Shown: one piece after another, positions 6,317-53,000 of the stretch
How positions within the stretch are numbered: the stretch's first letter is position 1
Layout of the letters: each line of letters begins with the position of its first letter
NCBI RefSeq assembly: GCF_011759705.1
Contig: NZ_JAAOZF010000001.1
Coordinates: 310,001 to 374,000 of the forward strand
DNA from: Microbacterium ulmi
Lineage (GTDB): Bacteria > Actinomycetota > Actinomycetes > Actinomycetales > Microbacteriaceae
DNA: 64,000 nt
Direction of reading: 5' to 3'
The notes under the pieces: model-generated
The model's input: only the letters and a program-made list of their open reading frames with translations
Database searches by the model: none
Told to the model about the DNA's origin: nothing
Made by a program: the position numbers and the translations under genes

Positions 6317-6364
6317 GCACGATCACCCGACGGCGGCGATCACGCCTCGGAGAGGCGGAGTGGA

Positions 6365-25581: not shown

Positions 25582-26892
25582 GTGTCGAAGTCACTGAGCA
25601 TCACCGCGAGCTCCGTCGATCCGGGAATCCTGACGCTGCCGTGGTCCACCACCCTCGGGGAGTGGCCGAGCAGTCACATCGTCTTCCTGCCCAAGGGCAT
25701 CTCCCGCCACCTCGTGCGCTTCGCGAACCTGTCGGGCCGCGTCGTGGCGATCAAGGAGACGACGGAGGAGATGGCGCGGCGCGAGTACGACATGCTGGGC
25801 AACCTCTCGCGCCTCGACGCTCCGTGCGTCGAGCGCGTCGCCGTCATCGCGGGGCGGGTGGATGCCGCGGGAGCACCGCTGCCCGCCGCGCTCGTGACGG
25901 CTCACTTGAAGTTCTCCCTCCCGTACCGTGCGCTGTTCACGCAGGTGCTGCGCCCGGACACCGCGACCCGCCTCGTCGACGCTCTGGCGCTGCTGCTGGT
26001 CCGGCTGCACAACGTCGGGTTCTTCTGGGGGGACGTGTCGCTGTCGAACACGCTGTTCCGTCGTGACGCGGGCGCGTTCGCCGCCTACCTCGTCGACGCC
26101 GAGACGGGAGAGCTCCACGAGTCGGGCCTCACGCGGGGCCAGCGACTGCACGACCTCGACGTCGCGCGCACGAACATCGCGGGCGAGATCATGGACCTGG
26201 AGGCCGGAGGGCGGCTCGAGGGCGGAGTCGACGCCGTCGCGATCGCCGACGGCATCGTCTCGTCGTACCACTCGCTGTGGGCCGCTCTGACCGACCAGGA
26301 GACGTTCCGCGCCGACGAGTCGTGGCACATCACGGAGCGTGTCCGCAAACTCAACGATCTGGGCTTCGACATCGGTGAGATGTCGATCGAGGCGACGGTG
26401 GACGGCACCCGCGTCTCGATCCAGCCGAAGGTCGTCGACGCCGGCCACCACCAGCGCCGCCTCCTGCGGCTGACGGGCCTCGACGTCGAGGAGAACCAGG
26501 CGCGCAGGCTCCTCAACGACCTCGACGAGTTCAGCGCCCGGGTGTCGCGGCTCGGCTCCGACGAGGACATGGTCGCGCACGAATGGCTGACGCGCGTGTT
26601 CGAGCCCGTCGTCCAGGCGATCCCCTTCGATCTGCGCGCGAAGCTCGAGCCCGCCGAGGTGTACCACCAGGTGCTCGAGCACCGCTGGTACGTATCGCAG
26701 GCGAACGGCCGCTCCGTTCCGCTCGCGGAGGCGCTCACGTCGTACATCGACGGCGTGCTGCGGCACCGCCGCGACGAGGCCACCCTCATGGGGCCGCCCA
26801 CCGAGACGATGACGCTGCCGATCCAGGTGCTCGGCGACGCCGCCATCGAGGCCGACGAGGACGAGGACGTCGACTGGCGCGACCTCGTCTGA
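25582..26892 (+). CDS. DUF4032 protein with kinase-like N-terminal domain
   Basis: The protein has 436 residues. The N-terminal half resembles lipopolysaccharide/aminoglycoside kinases: VAIKETTEEMARREYDML supplies a Lys-Glu pair, and LHNVGFFWGDVSLSNTLF is a Brenner-like HxxxxxxxGDxxxxN loop, followed by YLVDAETGE as the metal-binding segment. The C-terminal half (about 225-400) is DUF4032. The substrate is not known. GTG 25582 has GAGGAGAG upstream. It is the last core-like gene before the accessory region. Confidence 0.88.
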   Translation: MSKSLSITASSVDPGILTLPWSTTLGEWPSSHIVFLPKGISRHLVRFANLSGRVVAIKETTEEMARREYDMLGNLSRLDAPCVERVAVIAGRVDAAGAPLPAALVTAHLKFSLPYRALFTQVLRPDTATRLVDALALLLVRLHNVGFFWGDVSLSNTLFRRDAGAFAAYLVDAETGELHESGLTRGQRLHDLDVARTNIAGEIMDLEAGGRLEGGVDAVAIADGIVSSYHSLWAALTDQETFRADESWHITERVRKLNDLGFDIGEMSIEATVDGTRVSIQPKVVDAGHHQRRLLRLTGLDVEENQARRLLNDLDEFSARVSRLGSDEDMVAHEWLTRVFEPVVQAIPFDLRAKLEPAEVYHQVLEHRWYVSQANGRSVPLAEALTSYIDGVLRHRRDEATLMGPPTETMTLPIQVLGDAAIEADEDEDVDWRDLV

Positions 26893-26906
26893 CCTCCGAC
26901 TCCGCG

Positions 26907-27314
26907 TCACGCCGCTCCGGCGGGCCGCTCTCCCGCGACGTCCGTCGCGGCGCCAGCAGCGATGCTCGCCGCGGGGGGCGTCGGCTCGTCACCGGATCCG
27001 ACATCCTGTGCGGGGGTTGCAGGACCGGCATCCCGCCTGTCGCCGTACGGCGCCGGCGGCGAATCGTCCAGGAGCGCGTTGCGGATGATGAGTCGCGGGT
27101 CGTACTGCCGCGGATCGAGTCGGCGCCAGTCGATCTGCTCGTAGTCGTCGCCGAGGTCGCGCCGCACCTCCTCCGTCGTCTTGTCGGCCAGCTCGCGCAG
27201 GCGCCTGATGACCTGGGCTGCCCGCGACGCCAGCCCGGGGAGCCGTTCGGGCCCGAGCAGGAAGACCGCTGCGGCGAGGATGATGACGATCTTGTCGATC
27301 GAGATGCCGAGCAT
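26907..27314 (-). CDS. tatB: Sec-independent protein translocase subunit TatB
   Basis: The protein has 135 residues. One N-terminal membrane helix (ISIDKIVIILAAAVFLLGPERLP) ends with the LGPERLP hinge typical of TatB. An amphipathic helix (ASRAAQVIRRLRELADKTTEEVRRDLG) and a long Pro/Ala-rich tail follow. With TatC it forms the receptor for twin-arginine signal peptides. It is the last gene of a tatA-tatC-tatB operon, separated from tatC by 1 nt. The YDPRLIIRNALLDD segment is common in actinobacterial TatB. Confidence 0.9.
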   Translation of the reverse strand: MLGISIDKIVIILAAAVFLLGPERLPGLASRAAQVIRRLRELADKTTEEVRRDLGDDYEQIDWRRLDPRQYDPRLIIRNALLDDSPPAPYGDRRDAGPATPAQDVGSGDEPTPPAASIAAGAATDVAGERPAGAA

Positions 27315-27315
27315 G

Positions 27316-28113
27316 TCACGCTCCCGCGGGCATCGCGTCGAGCGCGAGGGCCCTGGCGCGCCGTCGGTCGTGCAGGAAGGCGACCCCGATCGCAGCGAAG
27401 TACAGCGCGACCATCGGCAGAGCGAGCAGGAACATCGACAGGACGTCTGCTGCGGGGGTCGCGAACGCCGCGAACACGGTGATGAGCAGGATCGCGGTCC
27501 GCCAGCCCTTCAGGATCCCCGCCGCCGAGACGACGCCCGCGAAGTTCAGGACGACGAGGAACACGGGCACGACGAACGCGACCCCGGTCGCGACGAGCAG
27601 CTTCAGCACGAAGTCGTAGTACGCGCGAGCATCGAGCAGAGCAGCGGAGTTCGCCGTCGTGAAGCCGAGCATCAGCTCGACGATGTGCGGCAGCACGAGC
27701 CATCCCGCTGCACATCCCGCAAGGAAGAGCGGGATGGCGGTCGCGAGGAAGGCCAGCGCGTACTGGCGCTCCCTGCGCACGAGTCCGGGCACCAGGAAGG
27801 CCCACACCTCATACAGCCAGACGGGGCTCGCGATGACGATGCCGACCGTCACCGCGATCTGCAGCTTCAGATCGAAGGCCTGGGTCACGGCTGTGAAGTT
27901 GAGGCCCGTCACTCGGCCCTCGGCCATGCCCGTATGCGCGATGGGTGCGCCCAGGAGCTGGAAGATCGGGTCGGCCAGGATGAATCCCGCGATGCCGCCG
28001 ACGACGACACCCGCCGCCGCGATCGTGAGCCGCTTGCGCAGTTCGCGGAGGTGGGATCCGACCGACATCCTCAGATCGACGGGTGGCCGGCCCTTCTTCC
28101 GCGTGCGTTCCAT
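27316..28113 (-). CDS. tatC: Sec-independent protein translocase subunit TatC
   Basis: This 265-residue protein has six membrane helices. The N-terminal MSVGSHLRELRKRL is the conserved TatC entry motif with the signal-binding Glu, and ASPVWLYEVWAFLVPGL is the family signature. It is the core receptor of the twin-arginine pathway. It lies 4 nt after tatA and 1 nt before tatB. The promoter before tatA carries two operators shared with two Tat-signal amidohydrolases 7 kb away. Confidence 0.97.
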   Translation of the reverse strand: MERTRKKGRPPVDLRMSVGSHLRELRKRLTIAAAGVVVGGIAGFILADPIFQLLGAPIAHTGMAEGRVTGLNFTAVTQAFDLKLQIAVTVGIVIASPVWLYEVWAFLVPGLVRRERQYALAFLATAIPLFLAGCAAGWLVLPHIVELMLGFTTANSAALLDARAYYDFVLKLLVATGVAFVVPVFLVVLNFAGVVSAAGILKGWRTAILLITVFAAFATPAADVLSMFLLALPMVALYFAAIGVAFLHDRRRARALALDAMPAGA

Positions 28114-28117
28114 CGTG

Positions 28118-28357
28118 TCAGTTCCGCGGTGTGGGGCCGACGGTGGATTCCGCCGCGGCGGACGGGTCGGCGGCGCTTGCGCGAGGCTTGTCGTCCGCGC
28201 CGCTCTCGTCGGCGCTCAGGGATCGCGTCTCGGTGCGCAGGATCCGCATCGACTGTCCTATGCTGCGCGCGAGCGCGGGAAGCTTCGTCGCTCCGAACAG
28301 GAGCAGCAGCACTGCGACGAGGACGAGCAGGTGCATTCCGGTCAAGTTGCCGATCAT
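28118..28357 (-). CDS. tatA: Sec-independent protein translocase subunit TatA
   Basis: The protein has 79 residues. A short N-terminus and a membrane helix (MHLLVLVAVLLLLFG) are followed by the FGATKLPALARSIGQSMRIL hinge and amphipathic helix that define TatA. TatA oligomers form the protein-conducting assembly. I chose ATG 28357 so that only a few residues precede the helix; longer in-frame starts would add a Pro/Arg-rich extension unlike TatA. The promoter lies about 160 nt upstream, leaving a long leader. Confidence 0.93.
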   Translation of the reverse strand: MIGNLTGMHLLVLVAVLLLLFGATKLPALARSIGQSMRILRTETRSLSADESGADDKPRASAADPSAAAESTVGPTPRN

Positions 28358-28519
28358 CGTTGATCCACTTTCTCTCGCTGGGCTTCTCGTGGCCGGGGGG
28401 ACGGGTCGTCCTCCGGTCGGCAGACGGTGCGGCAGCATCGCCCACGTCGGTGAGGGCGATGGCCGCCGCGCCAGCCGCGGCATTCGGGAGCATCCTGTGC
28501 GGGTGCGAAAAGACACTTC

Positions 28520-28559
28520 TGTCCAATTATGGTGCACAGCTGTCCAGTGTCAATGGACA
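28520..28559 (-). promoter_or_regulatory. tatACB promoter covered by two TGTCCA-type operators
   Basis: On the minus strand TTGACA (28548-28553) and CATAAT (28526-28531) are 16 nt apart. Operator A2 (28541-28559, TGTCCA-N7-TGGACA, perfect) contains the -35 in its spacer. Operator A1 (28520-28538, TGTCCA-N7-TGCACA) contains the -10. Their centres are 21 bp apart, on the same face of the helix. The rest of the 256-bp gap between the E2 and tatA genes shows nothing else I can support. Confidence 0.8.
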
Positions 28560-28613
28560 TTGCTGTTCAGTTATAGCAGAGATGCCTTTCGAGTGTCAGG
28601 GCAATGTGCGCGT

Positions 28614-29909
28614 TCAGACCAGCATCCCGACCGGGTTCTCGATGCGGTGCACGAACGCCGCGAGCCACCGCGCTGCGAGGGCGCCATCGAGCACACGGTG
28701 ATCGGCGGAGAGTGTGACGGTCATGATCGACGCGACACCCACCGAACCGTCGGACTCGACGATCGGGCGACGCGTCGCCGCTCCCACTGCGAGGATCCCC
28801 GCGTGGGGCGGGTTTATGATCGCCGAGAACTCACGCGTGCCGTACATCCCGAGGTTCGATACCGAGAACGACCCGCCCTCCAGCTCATGCTGCTTGAGCC
28901 TGCCCTCTCGCGCGCGGGCCGCCAGCTCGCCGATCGCCGAGCTCAGCTCGCCGAGCGTCATCCGCTCGACGCCGCGGACGACCGGGGTGAGCAGTCCCGT
29001 CGGCACCGATACGGCGATCGCGATGTCGACGCTCGAGAAGCGCCGGGTCGCATCGTCGGTCCAGATCGCGTTCGCCTCGGGAACGTCGCGCATCGCCCAG
29101 GCGACGGCCTTCACGACGAGGTCGTTGACCGAGATCCTGACGTCGCCCTGTTCGTTGATGCGCGCACGCAGAGCGAGCAGCTCGTCGACGCGGCAGTCGG
29201 CGACGACGTAGAAGTGCGGGATCGTGCTCTTGCTCTCGGTGAGCCGCCGGGCGATCGCGCGCCGCATGCCGGTGTGAGGGATCTCGGTGAACTGGCCGAC
29301 CTCGACTCCACTGCTCGGGGCGGGCACGGCGGATGCGGGCGGAGCGGAGGCCGCGGCGGGCGGCGGCGTCGCCGGCGCGGAGGACAGCTCATCGATGTCA
29401 CGACGCACGATCCGGCCGTGAGGACCCGACCCGGCGACCAGCGTCAGATCGATCCCGCGATCGCGGGCGAGACGGCGGACGAGCGGACTCGCGAACAAGC
29501 GCACCGGTGCGCTGTGCGATTCGGATGCCTCCGCCGACGGGGCAGGCTGAACATCGGCCATGACCCGCGCCTCGGCTGCCGCAGCGGGTGCGGCATCCGG
29601 CGTCGCCGCCGCCACGGCACCCGCTTCCTCCACGGCACCCGCTTCGCGCATCGCCTCCTCGCGGGTCTCGCCGGGCGCGGCGAGCACCGCGATCGGCGCA
29701 CCCACGGGTGCGGAGTCGCCGGCGGCGACGAGGATCCCGGCGAGCGTCCCCTCCGCCTCCGCCTCGTACTCGACGACGGCCTTCTCGGTCTCGATCTCGA
29801 CGATCGTCTGTCCGAGCGCGACGACGTCGCCGACATCGACGAGCCACGTCTGGATCGCCGCCTCGGCGCCGCCGGCGGCGAGCTGCGGCATCCGCACGAC
29901 GGCGGTCAT
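28614..29909 (-). CDS. Dihydrolipoamide acyltransferase (E2) of a 2-oxo-acid dehydrogenase complex
   Basis: The protein has 431 residues. A lipoyl domain (1-80) carries Lys43 in the ETEKAV motif. An Ala/Pro linker, a peripheral-subunit-binding domain (about 139-172: ASPLVRRLARDRGIDL) and a catalytic domain with His404 in SADHRVLDG follow. It transfers an acyl group from the lipoyl arm to CoA. ATG 29909 overlaps the E1 stop by 4 nt. No E3 (dihydrolipoyl dehydrogenase) is nearby, so the housekeeping E3 would be used. The acyl specificity is not readable. Confidence 0.93.
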   Translation of the reverse strand: MTAVVRMPQLAAGGAEAAIQTWLVDVGDVVALGQTIVEIETEKAVVEYEAEAEGTLAGILVAAGDSAPVGAPIAVLAAPGETREEAMREAGAVEEAGAVAAATPDAAPAAAAEARVMADVQPAPSAEASESHSAPVRLFASPLVRRLARDRGIDLTLVAGSGPHGRIVRRDIDELSSAPATPPPAAASAPPASAVPAPSSGVEVGQFTEIPHTGMRRAIARRLTESKSTIPHFYVVADCRVDELLALRARINEQGDVRISVNDLVVKAVAWAMRDVPEANAIWTDDATRRFSSVDIAIAVSVPTGLLTPVVRGVERMTLGELSSAIGELAARAREGRLKQHELEGGSFSVSNLGMYGTREFSAIINPPHAGILAVGAATRRPIVESDGSVGVASIMTVTLSADHRVLDGALAARWLAAFVHRIENPVGMLV

Positions 29910-32098
29910 CCCCGGCCTCCCCACGCGGCGCGCACGCGTTGGAGGCCCGCGGCGACCTCTTCGGCGCGGGCGATCGCGGCCCGCTCCAGCACCTTCGAGA
30001 TGCTCGGACTCGCCTCGCCGCCGGTCACGCGCTCGACGGGCTGGTCGAGCCAGTCGAAGTATCGCCGCTGGATCTCGTCGGAGAGCCATCCGCCGTACGA
30101 CGGTCCCTTCGCCCCCTGCTCGACGATGAGCACGTTGTTCGTCTTCCTGATGCTCTCGCCGATCGTGTCCCAGTCGATCGATGCGCGGTCGAGCCAGCGC
30201 AGGTCGATCACCTCGGCGTCGATGCCCGTCTGAGCGGTGGCCTCCAGAGCGTGGCCCACCATCGAGAGGTAGGTGAGGACCGTCACGTCGGAGCCGGCTC
30301 TGCGGACGGCCGCCGATCCTGGCGGGATGATGTAGTCGAGGTCTCCGTCGGGCACACGATCGGCGGCGCCGTAGAGATCGACGTGCTCGATGACGAGCAC
30401 AGGATCGTCGAGGGCGAGGGCGGCGTTCATGAGCCCGACGTAGTCCGCCGCCGTCGAGGCCGCGACGATCCGCCAGCCCGCCGACGTGGCGAAGATGCCC
30501 GCCGGGTCCATGAGGTGCTGCGAACCGTAGCCCGACCCCATGGCGACCTTCGTGCGAAGCACGAGCGGCACGCGGTTGTTGTCGCCGAACATGTGGCGCG
30601 CCTTGCCGATCTGGTTGAAGACCTGGTCGGCTGCGACCCACATGAAGTCGGGATACATGAACTCGACGATGGGCCGGAACCTGCCGTCGAGTGCGATTCC
30701 GCCCGCGAGTCCGACGAAGCCGTTCTCGCTGATGGGCGTGCCGATGACGCGGTCTGGACCGTACTTCTTCGCAAGACCCTTCGTGGCGCCGTTGGTGCCG
30801 CCGTTGAGGCGATGCACGTCTTCTCCCAGCACGATGATGCGGTCATCGGTCTCCATGCGGCGATCCATCGTCGCGGCGACGGCGTCGACGAACTTGGTGT
30901 CGCGCCACGCTCCGGAGTAGCTCGCCGGCTCGCCCGCGGTGAGACCTGCGAGCTCGCTCGCGTCGCCGCGGATGCCGGTGTCGACGACACTCGGATCGGG
31001 CCAGAGCCCGGGGCGGATGCGCCGACGCCCTGCGCTGTCGGGGTCGTCTTCGAGAAGCCGGCCCGCCGCTGCGGCCATCGCCGCCTGCGCCTGTTCGCGC
31101 ACGGCGCCGACGCCGGCTTCGTCGATGAGTCCGAGCGCCACCATTTCTCGCGCGACGCGGTCGAGCGGGTCGCGAGACCGCCACTGCGCCTCCTCGTCCT
31201 TCGTGCGGTATCCGAAGGCGCTTCCCGGGTACGGGCCGTTCTGGTGGAAGAAGCGGTACACCTCCGCCTCGATGATCGCCGGGCCCTCCCCTGCCCTCAT
31301 GCGCGCGAGCGCCTCCTGCGTCGCGAGGTGCACAGCGAGCGGGTCCATCCCGTCGACGCGCCACGATGGGATGCCGAATCCCTGGCCGCGCACGGAGAAG
31401 CGCGGGTCGGCCGTCACCTCGTCGGCATGCGTCGAGACCGCGTAGAGGTTGTTCTCGATGAAGTACATGACGGGGAGCTTCCACGCCGCCGCGAGGTTCA
31501 TGGACTCGAGCACCGAGCCGATCTGGCTCGCACCGTCGCCGAAGTAGTTGACCGAGACGTCGTGCGTGCTCGAGTGCTTCTGCGCCCACGCGTTGCCTGC
31601 TGCGATGGGCGCACCGCCGCCCACGATGGCGTTCGTGCCCAGTGCTCCGGCCTCGAGCCACTGCAGATGCATCGAGCCGCCGCGGCCGCCGGAGAACCCC
31701 TGCGCGAGCCCGAGGATCTCGGCGAGCGTGCGCTGAAGCATCGCCTGGAGCTCGGGGGTCACGAGGGCCGCAGGATCGAGCGTGCCGCCCGAGACGTGGC
31801 CGATCGCCTTGGCGAGGAACTGGTGGTGTCCGCGGTGCGAGCCGTTGACGGCATCCGTCGACGTGAGTGCCACGATCGACCCGACGGCCCCGCCCTCCTG
31901 GCCGATGCTCGAATGCGCCGGGCCGTGCACGAGGCCGGCCGCGGCGAGGTCGAGAACCGTCTCCTCGAACGCGCGAATGAGGTTGAGCTGTCCGAGCATG
32001 GTGCCCAGCAGCGCCGGATCCGCGCGCTTCCAGTCTGCGGCGGTCGTGGTCAGCTCGACCCAGGGCACTCCCGTCTCGAGCGTGCGTCGTCGAGGCAT
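29906..32098 (-). CDS. Thiamine-diphosphate-dependent dehydrogenase E1, alpha and beta fused
   Basis: This 730-residue protein has an E1-alpha part (about 20-340) with the TPP motif GDGASQIGSV...ENN, and an E1-beta transketolase-type part (about 375-725: MDRRMETDDRIIVLGEDV, then VIGTPISENGFVGLAGGIA). Fused E1 proteins occur in branched-chain, acetoin and other 2-oxo-acid dehydrogenases. It decarboxylates a 2-oxo acid and passes the acyl group to E2. I chose ATG 32098 with GGAG 6 nt upstream; ATG 32110 is also in frame. It is divergent from a VOC/GntR pair. Confidence 0.9.
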   Translation of the reverse strand: MPRRRTLETGVPWVELTTTAADWKRADPALLGTMLGQLNLIRAFEETVLDLAAAGLVHGPAHSSIGQEGGAVGSIVALTSTDAVNGSHRGHHQFLAKAIGHVSGGTLDPAALVTPELQAMLQRTLAEILGLAQGFSGGRGGSMHLQWLEAGALGTNAIVGGGAPIAAGNAWAQKHSSTHDVSVNYFGDGASQIGSVLESMNLAAAWKLPVMYFIENNLYAVSTHADEVTADPRFSVRGQGFGIPSWRVDGMDPLAVHLATQEALARMRAGEGPAIIEAEVYRFFHQNGPYPGSAFGYRTKDEEAQWRSRDPLDRVAREMVALGLIDEAGVGAVREQAQAAMAAAAGRLLEDDPDSAGRRRIRPGLWPDPSVVDTGIRGDASELAGLTAGEPASYSGAWRDTKFVDAVAATMDRRMETDDRIIVLGEDVHRLNGGTNGATKGLAKKYGPDRVIGTPISENGFVGLAGGIALDGRFRPIVEFMYPDFMWVAADQVFNQIGKARHMFGDNNRVPLVLRTKVAMGSGYGSQHLMDPAGIFATSAGWRIVAASTAADYVGLMNAALALDDPVLVIEHVDLYGAADRVPDGDLDYIIPPGSAAVRRAGSDVTVLTYLSMVGHALEATAQTGIDAEVIDLRWLDRASIDWDTIGESIRKTNNVLIVEQGAKGPSYGGWLSDEIQRRYFDWLDQPVERVTGGEASPSISKVLERAAIARAEEVAAGLQRVRAAWGGRG

Positions 32099-32124
32099 CG
32101 TCATCTCCATCGATCAGCGAGCGG

Positions 32125-32179
32125 TCGGTCGTCGACCGACTCCCATCGTAGGAATGATTGGATGCAATTACAAGCAATC
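32125..32179. promoter_or_regulatory. Two inverted repeats between the E1 gene and the VOC/GntR genes
   Basis: TCGGTCG-T-CGACCGA (32125-32139) is a perfect palindrome in the E1 leader. GATTG-N14-CAATC (32156-32179) lies in the centre of the divergent gap. Either could be the binding site of the GntR regulator encoded in the adjacent operon. The TGTCCA box is absent here. Confidence 0.45.
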
Positions 32180-32265
32180 GACACGTGGTACTCCAGAATC
32201 CTTCGATATTGACCCCGTGCTGGATACAATGAGCTTCTCGCAAGGCATTGACGAAGGGGTTGAGC

Positions 32266-32793
32266 GTGGCGATTCCAGGACTGCGGGGTTCAGATCACAT
32301 CGGCATCACGGTTCCCGACATCGACGCCGCCGAGCGTTTCCTCGTCGATGTCCTCGGCGCGCACGCCGTCTACACGCTCGGTGCGAAGAGATCGGACGAC
32401 GACGACTGGATGACCGTCCAGCTGGGCGTTCACCCGCGCACCGTGATCCGCGAGATCCGCTTCTACCGCCTCGGCAACGGGACGAACCTCGAGGTGTTCC
32501 AGTACGACAGCGCCGACGGCCAGGCTCCCCCGCCGCGCAACAGCGACATCGGCGGCCACCATCTCGCACTGTACGTCGACGACATGGACGCGGCCGTCGA
32601 CTATCTGCGCGCCGAGGGCGTCGAGATCATGGGCGAGCCCGTCGCCAGTGCCGGCGCATCGGCGGGTCAGCGCTGGCTCTACTTCCGTTCGCCGTGGGGA
32701 ATGCAGTTCGAGCTCGTGAGCTTTCCCGAGGGGAAGGCGTACGAGCGGGATGCCGAGATCCTGCTGTGGCACCCCGGGCAGCCCGAACGATGA
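32266..32793 (+). CDS. VOC-family (glyoxalase-like) enzyme
   Basis: The protein has 175 residues and two half-modules. The first begins GSDHIGITVPDIDAAERFLVDVLG with His at the metal position; the second has GGHHLALYVDDMDAAVDYL and ends WGMQFELVSFPEG with the Glu ligand. This resembles methylmalonyl-CoA-epimerase/glyoxalase members more than antibiotic-resistance ones. GTG 32266 has AAGGGG 7 nt upstream. A -10 (TACAAT, 32225-32230) is likely. The stop overlaps the GntR start by 4 nt. Confidence 0.85.
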   Translation: MAIPGLRGSDHIGITVPDIDAAERFLVDVLGAHAVYTLGAKRSDDDDWMTVQLGVHPRTVIREIRFYRLGNGTNLEVFQYDSADGQAPPPRNSDIGGHHLALYVDDMDAAVDYLRAEGVEIMGEPVASAGASAGQRWLYFRSPWGMQFELVSFPEGKAYERDAEILLWHPGQPER

Positions 32794-33488
32794 GCGCTGA
32801 CGGCACGGCCGAGCAGTCTCGCGCGCGGGACGGCGACGCGGGCGCGCGCATCGCCCTCGCCGTGCGTGAGGGGATCATGGCCGGCGAGTACCCGCCCGGC
32901 GCACGCATCCGTCAGGAGAACCTCGCCGAACAGTTCGGCGCGAGCCGCGTGCCCGTGCGCGAGGCGCTGCGGCAGCTCGAGTACGAGGGGCTCGTCCGGG
33001 TCGTCGCGAACACGGGGGCGTGGGTCTCTCGCCTGACTCTCGAGGAATGCGAAGAGGTCTACCAGATGCGCGAGCGCCTCGAACCGCTGCTCCTCCACTA
33101 CAGCGCACCGGCCCTCGATGCCGCCGCCATCGCGGGCCTTGCCCAGCTCGCCCAGCGGATCAGCAGCGTCGGGGCGGACACGGATGCCTTCCTCGCACTC
33201 GATCGTGAGTTCCACATGGCGAGCTACAAGGGCGCGCACACCGCGCAGCTGAGCGATCTCATCGAGAAGCTCTGGAACACGACGGCGCCCTATCGGCGCG
33301 CCTACGTCTCGAAGTGGGACGCGGACTCGCGCAAGATCGCGCACGAAGAGCACCACCTCATGGTCGCGGCCCTCCGCGACGGCGATTCGGAGGATGCCGA
33401 GCGTATCCTGGCGGGACACATCCGGCGAACCCGGCGACAGCTCGCGCGGCATCCCGACATCTTCGACGTCGAGTCGTCGGGCCGCTGA
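32790..33488 (+). CDS. GntR-family (FadR/FCD) transcriptional regulator
   Basis: The protein has 232 residues. The winged helix-turn-helix (about 22-85) includes REGIMAGEYPPGARIRQENLAEQFGASRVPVREALRQL in segments. The C-terminal FCD domain keeps the metal-site pattern Asp (DREFHMAS), His and the late HHLMVAALRDGD. It is translationally coupled to the VOC gene and divergent from the E1-E2 operon. It lies between the tat operon and the Tat-signal amidohydrolases, making it a candidate for control of any of these, though no operator is proven. Confidence 0.92.
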   Translation: MSADGTAEQSRARDGDAGARIALAVREGIMAGEYPPGARIRQENLAEQFGASRVPVREALRQLEYEGLVRVVANTGAWVSRLTLEECEEVYQMRERLEPLLLHYSAPALDAAAIAGLAQLAQRISSVGADTDAFLALDREFHMASYKGAHTAQLSDLIEKLWNTTAPYRRAYVSKWDADSRKIAHEEHHLMVAALRDGDSEDAERILAGHIRRTRRQLARHPDIFDVESSGR

Positions 33489-33493
33489 CGAAA

Positions 33494-33526
33494 GGCCGGG
33501 TGGGACTCGTGTCACCCCACCCGGCC
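33494..33526. terminator. Bidirectional hairpin between gntR and amidohydrolase
   Basis: An 11-bp perfect stem GGCCGGGTGGG/CCCACCCGGCC with an 11-nt loop separates two convergent genes. Confidence 0.8.
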
Positions 33527-33551
33527 CTCTGGCGGCGTGTCGCAGGCGGCG

Positions 33552-35429
33552 CTACTGCCACCAGCTCGCGTCGAACACGTGGTCGCTGTCGTGCGACCAG
33601 TCACGACTTCCGCGCACGACACCCGTGTCATGGACGATCGCTCCGTCGACGAACGTCATGACCGGCAGAATGCGGCGGACCTCGGCATCCGGGATCGTGA
33701 AGTAGTCCTTGTCGAGCACGAGGAGGTCGGCGAACTTGCCCGGCTCGATCGAGCCGAGATCGTCTTCGCGGTTGAGGTACCACGCGTTGCCGCGCGTGTA
33801 CGCGTGCAGGGCCTCCTGACGCGTCAGCTGCTGGCCGGGGTTGATCTGCTGGCCGGACACGTTGAGCCCGGTCGTCGCGTAGTGCAGGGCGAACCACGGG
33901 TTGTGCGGCGCGATGTGCACGCCGTCCTCGTGCAGACCCATGTGGATGCCGCTGTCATGGATCTGCCGGAACAGCGGGCCGACGGGAAGGCCGTCCGTCC
34001 TCGGCACACCGCCGAGCCACCGGAAGCCAGATGTCGAGACAGCGGCGTTCAACGCCTTGAGCCTCTCGAGATGGTCGGGCGTCGCGAAGTCGGCGTGCTG
34101 CAGACCCCATCGGAGCTCCTTGATGCCGAACTCCTGGTCCATCTGCTCATACGTCGCCACGACCTGCTCGATCGCGGCTGCGCTGGTGGGGCTTCCGCCC
34201 TGTGCATTCTCGTTGCGCCACCCCGCCTGCGCCACGAGCCGCTGCGACTCGAACCACACCGCGTACGCGTCCGCGTTGGTGGGCGCAGCGAAGGGAGCGG
34301 CCCATTCGCCGATGCCGCCGGTGCGGAGCATGTCGTCGCCGAAGAAGGGGAACTGGTTCCTGAGCCGATCCTTGAGCTCAGGCAGCTGCTGGGCGAGCCC
34401 GCCGAGGGCGGGAATGAACCCCTGGTTGTGCAGGAAGTTCATCTGCAGGCGCACGTATGCCTTGCCCTCGCCATGCAGCGACAGCCACGCGTCGTACATG
34501 CGGAAGTGATCCAGGCGGAACAGCGCGTCGTTCGGCTGCGGCGGCAGCAGCGACGGGTCGAGGGTCGCGCCGGCGGTCGCGGGGAGCACCTGGTCGAGGA
34601 TCGACGTGAGGCCGACCTTGGCGGTGAACGCCATGGAGTCCAGCGCGCTGCGGCGCTTATCGGCGAACGTCTGACGGATCCGCAAGTGGTAGAGCCCCGC
34701 GTTCGCGTTCGCGCCGGCGAGCGAGCCATCCTCGGCCACCGTCACGACGGGGTTGGTGACGGACTCGAAGAACTGCTTGCCGAGCGTGTTGACGCGTGCC
34801 GGCCCGAATCCGCTCTGGTAGAGGAACACTGGCCGGTCGGAGATGACGGCGTCTATCTCCGACAGCGTCGGCAGCCGGCGCTCGGCGAACATGCCGGAGG
34901 TGCCCGAGCCCATCGCCGTGATGAACTGGCCTTCCGGCACGTCGGGTCGGCGCGCGGCGAGGATCGCGAGCACTTCGCTGACGTTGTTCGCGAGCTCCCA
35001 CTCGGCGACGTGGTACCCCGGCCGGTTCGCGAGACTCACGAAGTGCGAGTGGCTCTCGATGAGTCCGGGGACCACGGTGCGGCCGCCCAGGTCGATCCGG
35101 TTCTCGGGGCTGCCGTTGCGGATCGCGTCCGCTCCGACGTCGACGATGCGGTCTCTCACGATCCGCACGGCGTTCACGACGGTGTTGCTGTCGTCCATCG
35201 TGTGGATCTTCCCGTTGACCAGGAGGCGGCCGACATCGCCACTGCCGTGCCATGGGCGATCCACGGTGTGGATCGGGCCCACGACGGCGGTAGCGGGGGA
35301 TGCCACGGCACTGCCGCTCAGGACTGCGGCTGCCGCCGCAGCGCTTCCACCGATGATCAGTCCTCGGCGCGAGATGCCTTCGGTGGCATCCTGCGGGTTC
35401 TCGCCGAACTGCTCTGACTTCTTTCCCAT
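33552..35429 (-). CDS. Tat-exported YtcJ-type amidohydrolase
   Basis: The protein has 625 residues. A twin-arginine signal (ISRRGLIIGG with Arg21-Arg22, then a hydrophobic Ala-rich stretch and a likely AVA cleavage site near 43) precedes an Amidohydrolase_3 domain. The first metal site is HSH in GLIESHSHF, and the C-terminus has GSIEPGKFADLLVLD. It would be exported folded with its metal and hydrolyse an amide or similar bond outside the membrane. The first 46 residues equal those of the divergent paralogue although the rest is far more diverged. ATG 35429 has AGGAG upstream; an extension to 35558 would read through the operator. Confidence 0.9.
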   Translation of the reverse strand: MGKKSEQFGENPQDATEGISRRGLIIGGSAAAAAAVLSGSAVASPATAVVGPIHTVDRPWHGSGDVGRLLVNGKIHTMDDSNTVVNAVRIVRDRIVDVGADAIRNGSPENRIDLGGRTVVPGLIESHSHFVSLANRPGYHVAEWELANNVSEVLAILAARRPDVPEGQFITAMGSGTSGMFAERRLPTLSEIDAVISDRPVFLYQSGFGPARVNTLGKQFFESVTNPVVTVAEDGSLAGANANAGLYHLRIRQTFADKRRSALDSMAFTAKVGLTSILDQVLPATAGATLDPSLLPPQPNDALFRLDHFRMYDAWLSLHGEGKAYVRLQMNFLHNQGFIPALGGLAQQLPELKDRLRNQFPFFGDDMLRTGGIGEWAAPFAAPTNADAYAVWFESQRLVAQAGWRNENAQGGSPTSAAAIEQVVATYEQMDQEFGIKELRWGLQHADFATPDHLERLKALNAAVSTSGFRWLGGVPRTDGLPVGPLFRQIHDSGIHMGLHEDGVHIAPHNPWFALHYATTGLNVSGQQINPGQQLTRQEALHAYTRGNAWYLNREDDLGSIEPGKFADLLVLDKDYFTIPDAEVRRILPVMTFVDGAIVHDTGVVRGSRDWSHDSDHVFDASWWQ

Positions 35430-35462
35430 GAGTGCTCCTGCTTGCTTGTCGACACTGACATT
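35293..35462 (-). repeat. Left arm of a 170-bp inverted repeat
   Basis: This arm holds the ribosome site, start and signal-peptide codons of the minus-strand amidohydrolase. Its complement equals 35853-36022 except at one position (35454 versus 35861). Confidence 0.95.
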
Positions 35463-35538
35463 TGGCGTGCATGCGTGCGCTGCATGCGCGGAGACCCGTC
35501 TCCGGGCGGGCCGGGTATTTATCCAGGGTTGTTCAGAG

Positions 35539-35557
35539 TGTCTAGCTATACTGGACA
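35539..35557. promoter_or_regulatory. Operator B TGTCTA-N7-TGGACA
   Basis: A near-perfect 6-7-6 inverted repeat 110 bp before the minus-strand amidohydrolase. It is flanked 3 nt away on each side by TGTTCA (35530 and 35561). Its left arm, read on the minus strand as TAGACA, may serve as the -35 box. Confidence 0.75.
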
Positions 35558-35721
35558 CACTGTTCAGGCCCGCACCCTAGCAGTAATCAGGAGTGTTGCG
35601 CGACTGTTCTGCCTGATGGACGAGGCACCTCCGACTGGCCTCGTGAATTGCCGCTTTCCTCGCGAGACGAATCGAGCGTTGTCGACTCTCGCTTGATCTG
35701 CTACCGTCCACACTGAACGCA

Positions 35722-35740
35722 TGTCCAGCCCCACTGGACA
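35722..35740. promoter_or_regulatory. Operator C TGTCCA-N7-TGGACA
   Basis: A perfect 6-7-6 inverted repeat, the same as operator A2 of the tat promoter, lies 146 bp before the plus-strand amidohydrolase and just upstream of a possible -10 box GATACT. Confidence 0.8.
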
Positions 35741-35852
35741 GCGATACTCGGACACCGCTGTCCGTTTACGAGTGTGGCCCCGATGACGCACCACGCCAGG
35801 GAAGGGGAGTGGAGCGCGGTGCGAGGTCGTCCGCACAGGTCCGGAATGGCTG

Positions 35853-36022
35853 AATGTCAGCGTCGACAAGCAAGCAGGAGCACTCATGGGAAAGAAGTCA
35901 GAGCAGTTCGGCGAGAACCCGCAGGATGCCACCGAAGGCATCTCGCGCCGAGGACTGATCATCGGTGGAAGCGCTGCGGCGGCAGCCGCAGTCCTGAGCG
36001 GCAGTGCCGTGGCATCCCCCGC
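35853..36022 (+). repeat. Right arm of a 170-bp inverted repeat
   Basis: This arm covers the leader, ribosome site and first 45 codons of the plus-strand amidohydrolase, identical to the left arm except for one base. Similarity drops abruptly at both ends of the arm. Confidence 0.95.
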
Positions 36023-37949
36023 GGCAGTCGCCGCACCGCCGGGATACACGACAGCCGTCGGCGGCGGCGGCAATGACGACCTGCTGTTCGTGAACGGGAG
36101 CATCCACACCTACGACGACGACAACTCCGTCGTCGACGCGGTGCGCATTCGGAACGGCCGCTTCATCGCGGTCGGGCAGGACGCCATCAACGCCGGCGAC
36201 TCCAGGTTCAAGGTCGACCTCGGCGGTCGTACCGTGATTCCCGGCATCATCGACTCGCACAACCACATCGGGCTGGTCAGCAACCGCCCCGGTCACTGGG
36301 TCGGACTGGAAGACGTCTTCACCCATGAGGATGCGGTCGCACGCCTCACGGCGAAGGCCGACTCCGTGCCCGAGGGCGAGCTGGTCACGTCTCTCGGCCC
36401 GATCGTCGCGATGCAGTTCCCCGGCAATGTGCTGCCGAACCTCACGACTCTGAACGCCGTGCCGCGACCGGTGATGATCATGGCCGAGCAGGGCGGCAAT
36501 GCCGTGAACCAGGCCGCGATCGACTACTTCGCCGCCAAGGGGATCACGATCACCGTCAACGCGGCGGGGTACCCGACCGGCGCCGGCGTGGGCCTCGCGC
36601 TCCAGCGGCTCCGGCAGGAGCTGACGGACGCCGACCGCGAGACCAACGCCCAGGCGGCGCTTCAGTACTACTCGACCCTCGGCATCACGACGCACCTCGA
36701 CGAGGGCGCCTTCCACGTCGACACACCAGGCACGGCCATCTGGAACGAGAACGCATACACGCTGCACCGGGGCTTCCTCGCGCGCAACGCGAAGAAGGCT
36801 CTGCCTGCCCGCATTCGCTTCGACTACCTGGAGGAGGACAGCACGGCGGATCTCCCCCGGCTCACGGCGCGTCTGAAGAACGCGTTCCCATTCTTCGGGA
36901 GCGACATGATGCGCTCCGGCGGAATCGGCGAGTTCACGGTGAACGGCTTCGGCGGCGGCGCCGTCGCCATCGGGGGTCCGGTCTGGCTGGCGGGCACCAA
37001 GATGGTCGCGCAGGCAGGCTGGCGCAACGAGAACCACTCGCTGTCGGCCACCGACATCGGCCAGATCGTCGCCGGCTGGGAAGCGGTCAACGCGGAGATC
37101 CCGATCGACGGTCTGCGTTGGGTCGTCGCGCACGTGCCGAACATCACCGAGGATCACGCCAACCGGCTCAAGGCGATGGGCGTGGGCGTCAAGGTCGGCT
37201 GGGGCCCGACGCGAACAGGGTCGAACCTCGGCCCGAAGCATCGCATGCTCATCGACAGCGGCATCCACGTGGGCTACCACTCGGACGGTGGCGACATCAC
37301 GTCGATCAACCCGTGGCTCAACCTCTACACGATGATCACCGGCCGCAACCTCCTCGGCAACGTGGTCTGGGAGGCGGGTCAGTCGATCACGCGCGACGAG
37401 GCGATCCAGCTCGCGACGAAGGACAACTCGTGGTTCATCCACGAGGACGACCTCGGCGGGATCAAGGTCGGCAATCACGCAGATCTCCTGGTGCTCGACC
37501 GCGACTTCTACACGATTCCGGACGCGGACATCCCGAAGATCCACTCCGACCTCACCGTCGTGGGCGGCGACATCATCCACGACAGCGGCGCGATCCCCGG
37601 CGACCGCAGCTGGGCCGAGGGCTGGACGAACCGCTACAACCATCCGGCGGCGGTGCGGCGGATCGATCTGGCCGTCTCGTCGACGCCGCGCACGGTGGCC
37701 GGCAAGGCCTACGTCACGGTCGTGGCGACGAACAACGAAGCGGTGCCGGTGGATGTCGTCATCACGACGGCGTTCGGCACGAAGTCGTTCACCAACGTCG
37801 CACCGGGCAAGTCCGCGAGTGTCTCGTTCAACTCCACGCTCGCATCGATCGGAGCGGGTGAGGCGACGATCGAGGTGACCGCCGTGCTCAACGGAGCGAG
37901 TGTGACCAACACCAAGATCGCGCCGTACCCGGCATTCCCCGCTGCGTGA
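35886..37949 (+). CDS. Tat-exported YtcJ-type amidohydrolase with C-terminal beta domain
   Basis: The protein has 687 residues. The twin-arginine signal is identical to that of the divergent paralogue. The Amidohydrolase_3 domain has HNH at the first metal site (GIIDSHNHIG), LRWVVAHVPNITEDH, GYHSDGGDI and KVGNHADLLVLD. About 85 extra C-terminal residues (from RRIDLAVSSTP) form an Ig-like beta segment lacking in the paralogue, perhaps for wall or substrate binding. ATG 35886 has AGGAG upstream. A strong hairpin follows the stop. Confidence 0.9.
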   Translation: MGKKSEQFGENPQDATEGISRRGLIIGGSAAAAAAVLSGSAVASPAAVAAPPGYTTAVGGGGNDDLLFVNGSIHTYDDDNSVVDAVRIRNGRFIAVGQDAINAGDSRFKVDLGGRTVIPGIIDSHNHIGLVSNRPGHWVGLEDVFTHEDAVARLTAKADSVPEGELVTSLGPIVAMQFPGNVLPNLTTLNAVPRPVMIMAEQGGNAVNQAAIDYFAAKGITITVNAAGYPTGAGVGLALQRLRQELTDADRETNAQAALQYYSTLGITTHLDEGAFHVDTPGTAIWNENAYTLHRGFLARNAKKALPARIRFDYLEEDSTADLPRLTARLKNAFPFFGSDMMRSGGIGEFTVNGFGGGAVAIGGPVWLAGTKMVAQAGWRNENHSLSATDIGQIVAGWEAVNAEIPIDGLRWVVAHVPNITEDHANRLKAMGVGVKVGWGPTRTGSNLGPKHRMLIDSGIHVGYHSDGGDITSINPWLNLYTMITGRNLLGNVVWEAGQSITRDEAIQLATKDNSWFIHEDDLGGIKVGNHADLLVLDRDFYTIPDADIPKIHSDLTVVGGDIIHDSGAIPGDRSWAEGWTNRYNHPAAVRRIDLAVSSTPRTVAGKAYVTVVATNNEAVPVDVVITTAFGTKSFTNVAPGKSASVSFNSTLASIGAGEATIEVTAVLNGASVTNTKIAPYPAFPAA

Positions 37950-40131: not shown

Positions 40132-40761
40132 TCAGCCGTGGGGAACGGCATCCCCTGGATTGCGATCGCGGACGAACCAGATCGCGCGGACGTCGACGTC
40201 GGACTCGTTCCAGAATCGATGCGGCAGACTCGAGTCGAACACGATCGAGTCCCCCGGCTCGAGAACGGCGACAGCGCCGTCGACCATGACGTTCATCCTG
40301 CCCGAGATCACGATCCCGTACTCGCGTCCCTCGTGCCTGATGTCCTCCGAGGGCGCCGTCGTGCCGGGTGAGTAGACGACCTCGAGAAACTCGGCATCCA
40401 CCTCACCGGCCGCCGTCAGGCGGCTCCACCGGGGACCCGAGCTGAGCTTGATGGTCGGATGATCGGCGGCCCGCTGGATGATTCCGGCGACAGCGAGATC
40501 GCCGCCGGAGGACACACCCACGGCCACCGATGCGTGGGGGTTCGGCGGGTCGAGCAGCTCGTTCATCGAGACTCCGAGTTCACGCGCAACAGCGTACAGC
40601 GCGGGCACGCTGAACGCGCCGATCCCCCGCTCGACCTGCGACACGTGGCTCGCGGAGACGCCGATACGACGCGAGAGCTCGCGCACCGTCATCCCGGCGG
40701 CAACTCGGGCGCTGCGCACCCGCACTCCGACGGTGTTCCACGGGGTATCGAGATCTGGCAT
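40132..40761 (-). CDS. XRE-family regulator with cupin sensor domain (1)
   Basis: The protein has 209 residues. The helix-turn-helix (about 10-65: SARVAAGMTVRELSRRIGVSASHVSQVERG) is followed by a cupin (about 110-205) with HEGREYGIVISG, EPGDSIVFDSSLPHRFWN and RAIWFV. Such proteins, for example PuuR, repress catabolic genes and sense the pathway substrate with the cupin. It lies 22 nt downstream of a second, related regulator and is probably co-transcribed with it. It converges with the DUF916 gene without a visible terminator. Confidence 0.9.
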   Translation of the reverse strand: MPDLDTPWNTVGVRVRSARVAAGMTVRELSRRIGVSASHVSQVERGIGAFSVPALYAVARELGVSMNELLDPPNPHASVAVGVSSGGDLAVAGIIQRAADHPTIKLSSGPRWSRLTAAGEVDAEFLEVVYSPGTTAPSEDIRHEGREYGIVISGRMNVMVDGAVAVLEPGDSIVFDSSLPHRFWNESDVDVRAIWFVRDRNPGDAVPHG

Positions 40762-41542: not shown

Positions 41543-42844
41543 TCAGTACGGACTCGCCACGAACAGCTGCTGCGCGGGGAACTTCGTGAGCACCTCGATG
41601 CCGTAGTCCGTGACGACGACCTCCTCCTCGATGCGCGCGGCGGAGAAGCCGTCGGATGCCGGGCAGTACGTCTCCATCGCGAAGACCATCCCCGCACGCA
41701 GCTCGACGGGGTCCCTCATGGAGTTGAGCCTCGAGATGATGGGCCGCTCGTGCAGGCCCAGCCCGAGTCCGTGCGCGAACTGCAGCCCGAACGCGGCGAG
41801 CTCGTTCTCGAAGCCGAAGTCCTCCGCGCGCGGCAGGACCGCGGCGACCTCGTCCGTCCCGACGCCGGGGCGGATCGCATCGAGCGCGGCATCCATCCAC
41901 TCCCGCGCCTGCTCGTACGCGTCGCGCTGGCTCTCGGTGGCCCAGCCGACGCCGAACGTGCGGTAGTAGCACGTGCGGTAACCGTTGAAGGAGTGGATGA
42001 TGTCGAAGAACGCCTGGTCACCGGGGCGGATGATGCGATCGGTGAAGTTGTGCGGGTGCGGATTGCACCGCTCCCCCGAGATCGCGTTGACGGCCTCGAC
42101 CTGATCGCTGCCGTACTCGTAGAGCCGCTTGTTGGCGAGCGCGACGATCTCGTTCTCTCGCACGCCGGGCTTGAGCGCCTCCACGATGTCCTGGTAGACG
42201 CCGTCGACCATGGCCGCCGCCTGATTGAGCAGCATGATCTCGTCCTGGTTCTTGATGACGCGCGCGTCGAGCATGGACTGCTGCGCATCGGCGACCCGCA
42301 CACCCTGCCGCTGCAGCTCGAAGAGGAACGGCGGCTCGACGATGTCGAGCCCGACGGGCGCATCAGCAAGGCCCCCTTCGCGCAGCAGCGACACGATCTC
42401 GCCGACGGCGTCGCGCATGAGACCCGCACCCTCGGGATCGACGGCGCCGCGGAAGCCCAGGAAGCCCGCGCGGTAATTCTCGTCGGGCACCCAGTCGGAG
42501 TAGATCTTGTGGTGGCGCACGGCGGAGCCGAAGTCCCACAGGATCGGGTCGCGTCCCCGCATGAGCAGGGCGTAGCGGATCATCTTGTCGCCGAGTGCAC
42601 CTCCGATCCACGTCTGCGTCGTGTACCGGATGTTGTAGAAGTCGAACAGCAGGAACGCTCCGCACTCGCTCGCGTCGAGCGCCGCCTGGGCCCGCCCGAG
42701 CCGGTACCCGCGCAGGCGGTCGAAGTCGACTCGGTGCTCGTAGTCGACGCCGTTCTGCCCCGGCGCACCGAGAGGACGCACCCCCGGCGGCCGCGAGGGA
42801 GGCCGTTCGAACCTGCGACCGCCGTGGTCGTGGTGGGCGCTCAT
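41543..42844 (-). CDS. M24-family (creatinase/aminopeptidase fold) hydrolase (1)
   Basis: The protein has 433 residues: a creatinase N-domain (about 40-195) and a pita-bread domain (about 200-430). Metal-site residues seen are Asp281 (FFDII), His358 (QFAHGLG) and the two Glu in METYCP and RIEEEVVV. The second canonical Asp is Cys292 in GYRTCYYRTF. It is therefore unlikely to be a standard di-metal Xaa-Pro peptidase and may be a creatinase- or ectoine-hydrolase-like C-N hydrolase. It is the last gene of the Liv/amidohydrolase operon and overlaps the upstream gene by 1 nt. Confidence 0.88.
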   Translation of the reverse strand: MSAHHDHGGRRFERPPSRPPGVRPLGAPGQNGVDYEHRVDFDRLRGYRLGRAQAALDASECGAFLLFDFYNIRYTTQTWIGGALGDKMIRYALLMRGRDPILWDFGSAVRHHKIYSDWVPDENYRAGFLGFRGAVDPEGAGLMRDAVGEIVSLLREGGLADAPVGLDIVEPPFLFELQRQGVRVADAQQSMLDARVIKNQDEIMLLNQAAAMVDGVYQDIVEALKPGVRENEIVALANKRLYEYGSDQVEAVNAISGERCNPHPHNFTDRIIRPGDQAFFDIIHSFNGYRTCYYRTFGVGWATESQRDAYEQAREWMDAALDAIRPGVGTDEVAAVLPRAEDFGFENELAAFGLQFAHGLGLGLHERPIISRLNSMRDPVELRAGMVFAMETYCPASDGFSAARIEEEVVVTDYGIEVLTKFPAQQLFVASPY

Positions 42845-50329: not shown

Positions 50330-50376
50330 AGTACAGCAAGGGGGGTGGATACTGTCAAGTGGCACTGCACAACGTT
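50330..50376 (-). promoter_or_regulatory. Promoter of the Liv operon with CAACRTYGTGCAGT box
   Basis: On the minus strand TTGACA (50352-50357) and TGTACT (50330-50335) are 16 nt apart. Just upstream lies CAACGTTGTGCAGT (50363-50376), which recurs with two changes in the promoter of the cupin operon (54774-54787). A GCACTG-N16-CAGTGC inverted repeat (50361-50388) overlaps it. Confidence 0.65.
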
Positions 50377-51611: not shown

Positions 51612-53000
51612 TCAGTCGTGGGCTTCTCCGCGGCCCTCGGGCGTGTTGAGGTGCGACTGGGAGTCTCGGATGCCGGGAAGCGGGCCGTTCACCGTGAAGT
51701 AGCGTCCACCGCCGGCGACGAGGAGATCCTCGGCAGGGAACTTCGTGATCACCTCGCAGCCGTCGGCCGTCACGACGACCTCCTCCTCGATGCGCGCCGC
51801 GCCCCACCCGTCGGCCGCGGGCCAGTAGGTCTCGAGGGCGAAGACCATCCCCTCCTGCAGCTCCTCGGGGTGCTCGAGCGAGGTGAGCCGCGAGAAGATC
51901 GGCTTCTCCCAGATCGAGAGGCCGACGCCGTGGCCGTACTGCAGGGCGAACGCCGCCTCCTCGTCGGGGAAGCCGAACTCCTGCGCCGTGGGCCAGAGCG
52001 TCACGATGTCGGCGGTCGTCGCGCCGGGGCGCACCGACGCGATCGCGACGTCCATGTACTCGCGAGCGCGCGTGTACGCGTCGACCTGGGCCCTGCTCGC
52101 CGAGCCGACCGCGAAGGTGCGGTAGTAGCACGTGCGATAGCCGTTGAAGGAATGCAGGATGTCGAAGAACGCGGGGTCGCCGGGGCGGACGGCGCGGTCC
52201 GAGTACACGTGCGGATGCGGCGCGCACCGCTCCCCCGAGATGGCGTTGACGCCCTCGACGTACTCCGAGCCCTGATCGTAGAGCGCCTTCGCGACGAGGC
52301 CGACGCACTCGTTCTCGCGCACGCCGGGGCGCAGGAACTCGTAGAGCTGGTCGTACGCGGCATCCACCATCGATGCGGCCGTCGTGAGGAGCGTGATCTC
52401 GTCCGGGGTCTTGATGCGGCGCGCCTCCATGAACACCTGCTGCCCGTCGACGACCTGGATGCCCTCCGCCTGCAGCGCGAACAGGACGGGGAGCTCGACG
52501 ATGTCGACGCCGAGCGGCTCGCCGAGCAGCCCGAACTTCTCGAGCTCCCGGCGGATCTTGCGCGCCACCCCCTGCGCGATCCCGGCAGACGGGGGGAACG
52601 CGCCGCGCAGCGTCGAGATGCCGGCGCGCGCGCCCGACTCGAGCCGAGGGCTCGTCGCGCCGTGGTGCGGCGCGTGGGGATCGGCATCCGCCTCCATGTG
52701 GGTCTCGTGCAGCCACGGGTTCAGCAGCGCGTGATGCTTCGCGGCAGAGCCGAAGTCCCACACGATCGGGTCGGTCTTGCGCGTCACGAGACAGAAGCGG
52801 ATGAGCTTGTCCATGGCCCACGTGCCGATGTGGGTCGCGGACGCGTATCGGATGTTGCCGAAGTCGAACGCGAGCACGGCCCCCATCGACGATCGCTCGA
52901 GCTCCGCGCGCAGTCGCGCGAGGCGCTCCTCCCTGAGCCGGTCGAAGTCGACCCGGGCTTCCCAGTCGACACCCATCGTGCCGCGCGTGGCGATGCTCAT
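51612..53000 (-). CDS. M24-family (creatinase/aminopeptidase fold) hydrolase (2)
   Basis: The protein has 462 residues and is a close paralogue of the M24 protein at 41543-42844, with which it shares NAISGERC, the HSFNGYRTCYYRTF segment and RIEEEVVVT. It also lacks the second metal Asp (Cys in its place), but keeps Asp in FFDIL, His in QYGHGVG and both Glu. An insert of about 30 residues after WLHETHM is specific to it. I chose ATG 53000; GTG 53012 is an in-frame alternative. It is translated between the SDR and MFS genes. Confidence 0.87.
   Translation of the reverse strand: MSIATRGTMGVDWEARVDFDRLREERLARLRAELERSSMGAVLAFDFGNIRYASATHIGTWAMDKLIRFCLVTRKTDPIVWDFGSAAKHHALLNPWLHETHMEADADPHAPHHGATSPRLESGARAGISTLRGAFPPSAGIAQGVARKIRRELEKFGLLGEPLGVDIVELPVLFALQAEGIQVVDGQQVFMEARRIKTPDEITLLTTAASMVDAAYDQLYEFLRPGVRENECVGLVAKALYDQGSEYVEGVNAISGERCAPHPHVYSDRAVRPGDPAFFDILHSFNGYRTCYYRTFAVGSASRAQVDAYTRAREYMDVAIASVRPGATTADIVTLWPTAQEFGFPDEEAAFALQYGHGVGLSIWEKPIFSRLTSLEHPEELQEGMVFALETYWPAADGWGAARIEEEVVVTADGCEVITKFPAEDLLVAGGGRYFTVNGPLPGIRDSQSHLNTPEGRGEAHD

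Follow-up and report, generated by a model that had tools for sequence, protein, structure and literature searches.

The window analyzed here is a 64,000-nt stretch of the Microbacterium ulmi genome that contains two divergently oriented amidohydrolase genes. Amidohydrolase 1 (gene 1; 33552-35429, minus strand) encodes 625 amino acids, and amidohydrolase 2 (gene 2; 35886-37949, plus strand) encodes 687. Both proteins match the Pfam family Amidohydro_3, and PDB sequence searches matched only distant amidohydrolases. They are 41% identical overall, and their first 46 residues are identical. Within these residues both carry SRRGLIIGG followed by an alanine-rich stretch, which we take, from the motif alone, to be a twin-arginine (Tat)-type signal. 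At its other end, amidohydrolase 2 has a C-terminal extension (37653-37949, residues about 590 to 687) not shared by gene 1 or by the gene-2 orthologues of the two relatives described below. In related genomes, segments of other open frames, most of them long, match the extension at about 30 to 56%.

The identity at the protein N termini reflects a large inverted repeat. The gene-1 arm (35293-35462, minus strand) and the gene-2 arm (35853-36022, plus strand) are 170-nt reverse complements that differ at a single position. Each arm is made up of a 33-nt leader portion and the first 137 coding nt of its gene, and thereby includes the ribosome site, the start codon, and the Tat-type signal peptide. 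The lone mismatch, at position -25 relative to the start codons, pairs 35454 with 35861 and leaves identical runs of 161 nt (35293-35453) and 8 nt (35455-35462). Beyond these runs, matching between the arms falls to background, so the repeat has sharp ends. Between the arms lies a 390-nt spacer (35463-35852) with two divergent promoters. Thus, the first-pass annotation of this DNA was accurate in reporting near-perfect 170-nt inverted repeats, in what it assigned to the arms, and in its remark that identity stops sharply.

We asked how often the arm occurs in the genome (3.51 Mb in three contigs, 99.99% complete). A whole-genome search with the arm at E <= 0.001 found exactly two places, so a mobile element or multicopy repeat is unlikely. 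When a 1.7-kb query around the arm was compared with 72,556 plasmid records, there was one match of 48 bases, and it lay outside the arms. Among inverted pairs of at least 40 nt in the window (seed 14), the two arms are by far the longest and the most alike; the next pair is 46 nt at 80%. Elsewhere in the window, there is a repeat array at 6329-6805 with a spacing of mostly 15 nt, and two diverged direct copies (41556-42751 and 51715-52973; pieces at 70 to 77%) lie about 10.2 kb apart.

Gene 1 had matches at E <= 1e-50 in 3 of the 366 genus genomes searched, the source genome included. These were M. ulmi, G267, and G073, the last of which is Microbacterium salsuginis (locus L041). Both relatives carry the same divergent pair, and our between-species comparison of the pair covers these two species only. 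Another genome, G413, has one gene-2-like copy, and G267 has an additional gene-1-like copy that is unlinked to its pair. No further pair was found in a family sample (398 genomes, gene 1 as the query, E 1e-50) or in an order sample (396 genomes, gene 2 as the query, E 1e-90). A DNA search with the arm in 198 genus genomes gave a match in nine, but matches longer than 65 nt only in M. ulmi and M. salsuginis, the latter at 73% over 146/170 nt.

The promoters of the pair are built alike. In M. ulmi, CTGCTA occurs at 35578-35583 (minus strand) in the gene-1 promoter and at 35698-35703 (plus strand) in the gene-2 promoter; each is a putative -10-like element, a role suggested by its conservation. 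Across the six promoters of the three species, CTGCTA is found in five, and the gene-1 promoter of G267 has CTGATA instead. CTGAAC follows CTGCTA in 5/6 promoters and is absent from that of G267 gene 2. After the CTGAAC position, all six promoters have an operator-like dyad, TGTCCAG-N5-CTGGACA, with no more than two mismatches. The copy that defines the pattern lies at 35722-35740 in the M. ulmi gene-2 promoter, and the copy in the gene-1 promoter (35539-35557) has one mismatch. A further copy with one mismatch lies before tatA at 28541-28559, adjoined by CTGAACA. These three (35722, 35539, and 28541) are the only matches at <= 1 mismatch in the whole genome, and all lie within 7.2 kb; a simple base-composition estimate gives a chance expectation of 0.45 in 3.5 Mb. 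At two mismatches there were three more places, and a reversed-pattern control gave equal numbers (6 and 6 per strand). Because the control finds as many, these looser matches mean little. Within the window, there were five dyads at <= 3 mismatches against a shuffle mean of 2.08, which is not significant (6/100 shuffles reached five), and a half-operator pattern gave one match against a shuffle mean of 0.49. One weaker dyad at 50353-50371 (two mismatches) is almost identical to a site in the G073 flank (L064:10331-10349), which also has two mismatches. It could be a chance match or a fourth site.

We then compared gene 1 with gene 2 within each of the three genomes. In the coding part of the arm, the two genes agree at 137/137 positions in M. 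ulmi but at only 83/128 (65%) in M. salsuginis and 95/131 (72%) in G267. In the rest of the gene, agreement is 889/1618 in M. ulmi, 903/1609 in M. salsuginis, and 953/1603 in G267 (55 to 60%). The DNA outside the arm is thus 55% identical in M. ulmi, which agrees with the earlier remark that the mature parts are far more diverged than the 5' ends. Fourfold codons gave the same picture. In the arm, the third base is the same in 28/28 such codons in M. ulmi, 7/20 in M. salsuginis, and 6/20 in G267, while in the rest of the gene the counts are 61/131, 63/137, and 88/143, respectively. That agreement is complete in the M. ulmi arm and 61/131 elsewhere in the same genes demonstrates that protein constraint does not explain the equal arms. 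We also reject constraint alone on account of the relatives, which differ at 13/20 (M. salsuginis) and 14/20 (G267) fourfold codons of the arm.

The length of the identical run points in the same direction. The longest identical coding run in M. ulmi is 137 nt, whereas 10,000 column permutations gave runs of at most 27 nt and none reached 137; counted in codons, the run is 45 and the permutations gave at most 14. The longest run in M. salsuginis is 15 nt, which 1333/10,000 permutations reached, and that in G267 is 19 nt, which 466/10,000 reached. The M. ulmi arm is 62 to 75% identical to either gene of both relatives, and outside the arm orthologues are closer to each other than paralogues are. 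Since the arms are equal here, diverged in both relatives, and in full agreement at fourfold codons, they appear to have been homogenized recently in the M. ulmi lineage, most likely after its split from G267. Recent gene conversion as the reason for the equal 5' ends was one of two readings offered by the first-pass annotation, and this comparison of arms within and between genomes supports it well.

Near-identical repeats can be over-corrected by assemblers and polishers, which led us to consider whether the equality of two merely similar arms was produced by assembly or polishing. However, one mismatch between the arms (35454) is retained, neither reading frame is broken and both give plausible signal peptides, and the genome is 99.99% complete in three contigs. 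Furthermore, polishing would hardly have collapsed arms as diverged as those of the relatives. We consider such an artifact extremely unlikely.

It is also conceivable that the locus, already homogenized, or only its 5' end, was imported horizontally from another lineage. The gene order gives this idea some basis. In G267 and M. salsuginis, E2 and the DUF4032 gene flank the amidohydrolase pair; in M. ulmi (25582-37949) they flank tatCA, and the pair is found beyond a GntR gene. The pair is thus placed differently from both relatives, and the locus was rearranged or moved. However, the gene sequences outside the arms speak against it. In a tree of the gene remainder, genes 1 and 2 form separate clades with support of 100/100, and within them M. 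ulmi gene 1 groups with G267 gene 1 (100/99) and gene 2 with G267 gene 2 (93/96). Both M. ulmi genes are about 82% identical in DNA to their G267 counterparts outside the arms. In addition, import would still require homogenization within the pair somewhere. We therefore regard it as very unlikely. A tree of the arm, in which the two M. ulmi sequences are identical, contains no branch with support.

Inside the genes, we noted a second place where the paralogues resemble each other. An internal stretch of 73 nt is 89% identical between the two G267 genes (L050:6700-6772 and 9091-9163). In the protein alignment, gene 1 of M. ulmi and of G267 looks gene-2-like in the PFFG-DM-R-GGIGE region, unlike gene 1 of M. 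salsuginis. This stretch is possibly an older conversion tract.

The other reading offered by the first-pass annotation was an invertible switch, in which recombination between the arms flips 35463-35852 and swaps which promoter drives which gene. Inverted repeats do flank promoters here, and arms of 170 nt that are nearly identical are in principle a substrate for such recombination. We therefore asked which way the spacer lies in the relatives. Against G267, the leader-free spacer gave a local score of 65 in the same orientation and 41 inverted (shuffles, <= 43); against M. salsuginis, the scores were 85 and 78 (shuffles, <= 49). With the leaders included, the semi-global scores against M. 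salsuginis were 239.5 and 240 for the two orientations. Between M. salsuginis and G267, the leader-free spacers scored higher inverted, both locally (71 versus 64; shuffles, <= 39) and semi-globally (145.5 versus 139), probably because both promoters are paralogous, so by itself this score says little. Orientation marks are also shared by M. ulmi and G267, with GTGCGnGCCTGAACA toward gene 1 and GTCCAGCCnCACTGGACAGCG toward gene 2. The assembly shows a single orientation of the spacer, which most likely is the same as in both relatives, which is clear for G267 and weak for M. salsuginis.

An inversion would also be expected to accomplish little. The order CTGCTA, CTGAAC, dyad is common to both ends of the spacer, and because the promoters share this layout, a flip would probably swap like for like. 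Moreover, a switch that was maintained would need matching arms, and those of the relatives match at only 65% (M. salsuginis) and 72% (G267). As the annotation had itself remarked, no recombinase is adjacent: we found no recombinase family among 22 open reading frames picked between 24.3 and 43.3 kb and scanned against Pfam, 12 of which had any match. The agreement in orientation, the near-equivalence of the promoters, and the divergence of the relatives' arms all speak against the switch. We consider it very improbable and reject a functional one. Flipping of the spacer at low frequency is nevertheless plausible, since inversion is documented as a by-product in Salmonella. In that organism, 8% (5/59) of the recombinants obtained with inverted cassettes carried an inversion, and for the tuf genes the proportion rose as high as a quarter (PMC8262849). 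Natural inversions between inverted ends are likewise described for IS elements in the part of PMC3004938 available to us.

How did the two 5' ends become equal? We think it probable that intrachromosomal gene conversion did this recently in M. ulmi. The divergent pair, which no fewer than three species of the genus carry, would go back to an ancient duplication, in inverted orientation, of a Tat-type amidohydrolase and its promoter. In M. ulmi, one 5' end (about 161 to 170 nt) would then have overwritten the other by nonreciprocal homologous recombination, and the copied tract would comprise the leader, ribosome site, and signal peptide. Copying would have halted where homology ends, on one side shortly after the signal peptide and on the other at the leader box. 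The outer end of the arm does coincide with the point, shortly after the signal peptide, beyond which the paralogues no longer show alignable similarity. At the inner end, the gene-1 leader box TGTCAGTGTCGACA is the same as that of G267 gene 1, and the gene-1 base at the mismatch, 35454, is the base found in the G267 gene-1 leader. Because of the shared leader box, 35455-35462 could be older shared sequence, and the converted tract may end at 35454 and span 35293-35453.

The direction of copying was less clear. At sites where the two genes differ in M. salsuginis, the M. ulmi arm is gene-2-like at 17 and gene-1-like at 11; at sites where they differ in G267, it is gene-1-like at 17 and gene-2-like at 12. 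The one strictly diagnostic site in the arm is gene-1-like. Since these counts conflict, the donor gene cannot be named.

The relatives also provide a view of what recombination may have had to work with. Between the corresponding ends of their two genes (-40 to +160, near register), the longest identical block is 11 nt in M. salsuginis and 14 nt in G267, which is short for RecA-type pairing. This suggests either that closer arms were kept until recently in the M. ulmi lineage or that some other mechanism began the copying. One such mechanism is replication template switching, in which synthesis at a short shared block moves to the opposite arm, copies about 160 nt, and switches back. It requires microhomology only and is specific to inverted copies, and blocks this short fit microhomology better than they fit RecA pairing. 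Template switching is therefore a serious rival. According to the portion of PMC8604942 that was accessible, template switching between nonidentical inverted arms homogenizes the arms and may invert spacers; what was available of the Escherichia coli quasipalindrome papers also describes template switching between inverted arms. However, the tract of about 160 nt and the spacer of 390 nt at this locus are far beyond the examples in the yeast survey, where the example arms in the accessible text are 11 and 16 bp and spacers were taken up to 70 bp (PMC8604942). Overall, we see template switching as a possible but doubtful explanation. Returning to gene conversion, the agent would presumably be of the RecA type rather than template switching. 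The crossover outcome of the same recombination could flip the spacer, and nothing indicates that such flipping is frequent or useful.

The third dyad led us to the Tat genes in the window. TatA (28118-28357, minus strand; Pfam TatA_B_E, start codon read from the sequence) and TatC (27316-28113, minus strand; Pfam TatC) are adjacent, and this TatC is an extra copy: M. ulmi has three, and G267 and M. salsuginis have one each. The M. ulmi copy that we call C2 is 67% identical to the TatC of M. salsuginis and 79% to that of G267, and it is likely the housekeeping TatC. The window TatC is 49 to 55% identical to the five other TatC proteins compared. Its top four matches outside its own genome, among the 366 genus genomes, are 57 to 59% identical, and in the stretches fetched from those four genomes we found no amidohydrolase of this kind and no dyad at <= 2 mismatches. 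The tatAC pair seems to be one that neither relative has. Upstream of tatA, the gap from CTGCTA to CTGAACA is 3 nt, compared with 9 to 10 nt at the promoters of the amidohydrolase pair; the tatA promoter thus looks similar to those promoters but not the same.

Linked by the dyad, the amidohydrolase pair and tatAC seem to be under one control site, and the dyad together with the extra tatAC suggests a small, possibly dedicated export regulon. Regulator genes of the GntR/FCD (about 32.8 to 33.5 kb) and XRE-cupin (40132-40761) types in the window are candidates for acting at the dyad. Equal signal peptides and an extra, possibly coregulated Tat pair occur together in one of the three species, which is suggestive of a link from a single instance. 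An adaptive reading can be built on this joint occurrence: in the M. ulmi lineage, the pair would have entered one regulon together with a TatAC translocase of its own, and conversion of the ribosome site and the Tat-type signal peptide would have been selected so that both substrates fit this new translocase in equal dose. We consider this unlikely. If it were true, a private export machine would be what made the signal peptides alike.

Inverted genes that undergo gene conversion, template switching, and the inversion of promoters are all established phenomena; our literature searches found no published account of the present locus. What it offers is a clear-cut actinobacterial example of partial concerted evolution, in which the inverted paralogues are strongly diverged and two relatives without the conversion allow comparison. 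It also lends itself to asking which of two processes, RecA-type conversion or template switching, operates when identical blocks are short.

Three known systems resemble the locus in part. Like fimS, as far as the accessible descriptions of that element go, it has a promoter segment of a few hundred base pairs between inverted repeats. However, fimS is inverted by a tyrosine integrase, and no recombinase was among the open reading frames scanned here; in addition, at our locus the arms consist mostly of coding sequence and enclose two similar promoters, and in the relatives they are not nearly identical. The tuf genes of Salmonella are alike throughout and lie far apart, whereas here about 160 nt of the 5' ends are equal in paralogues that are 55% identical and 390 nt apart. 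The likeness to tuf, as described in the available parts of PMC8262849 and PMC5485169, is in inversely oriented duplicates, nonreciprocal copying, and inversion as a minority by-product. Finally, quasipalindromes corrected by template switching have short arms and spacers in the accessible text of PMC8604942, unlike the arms of about 160 nt and the spacer of 390 nt seen here. In both, an imperfect inverted repeat is made nearly perfect from a nearby template.
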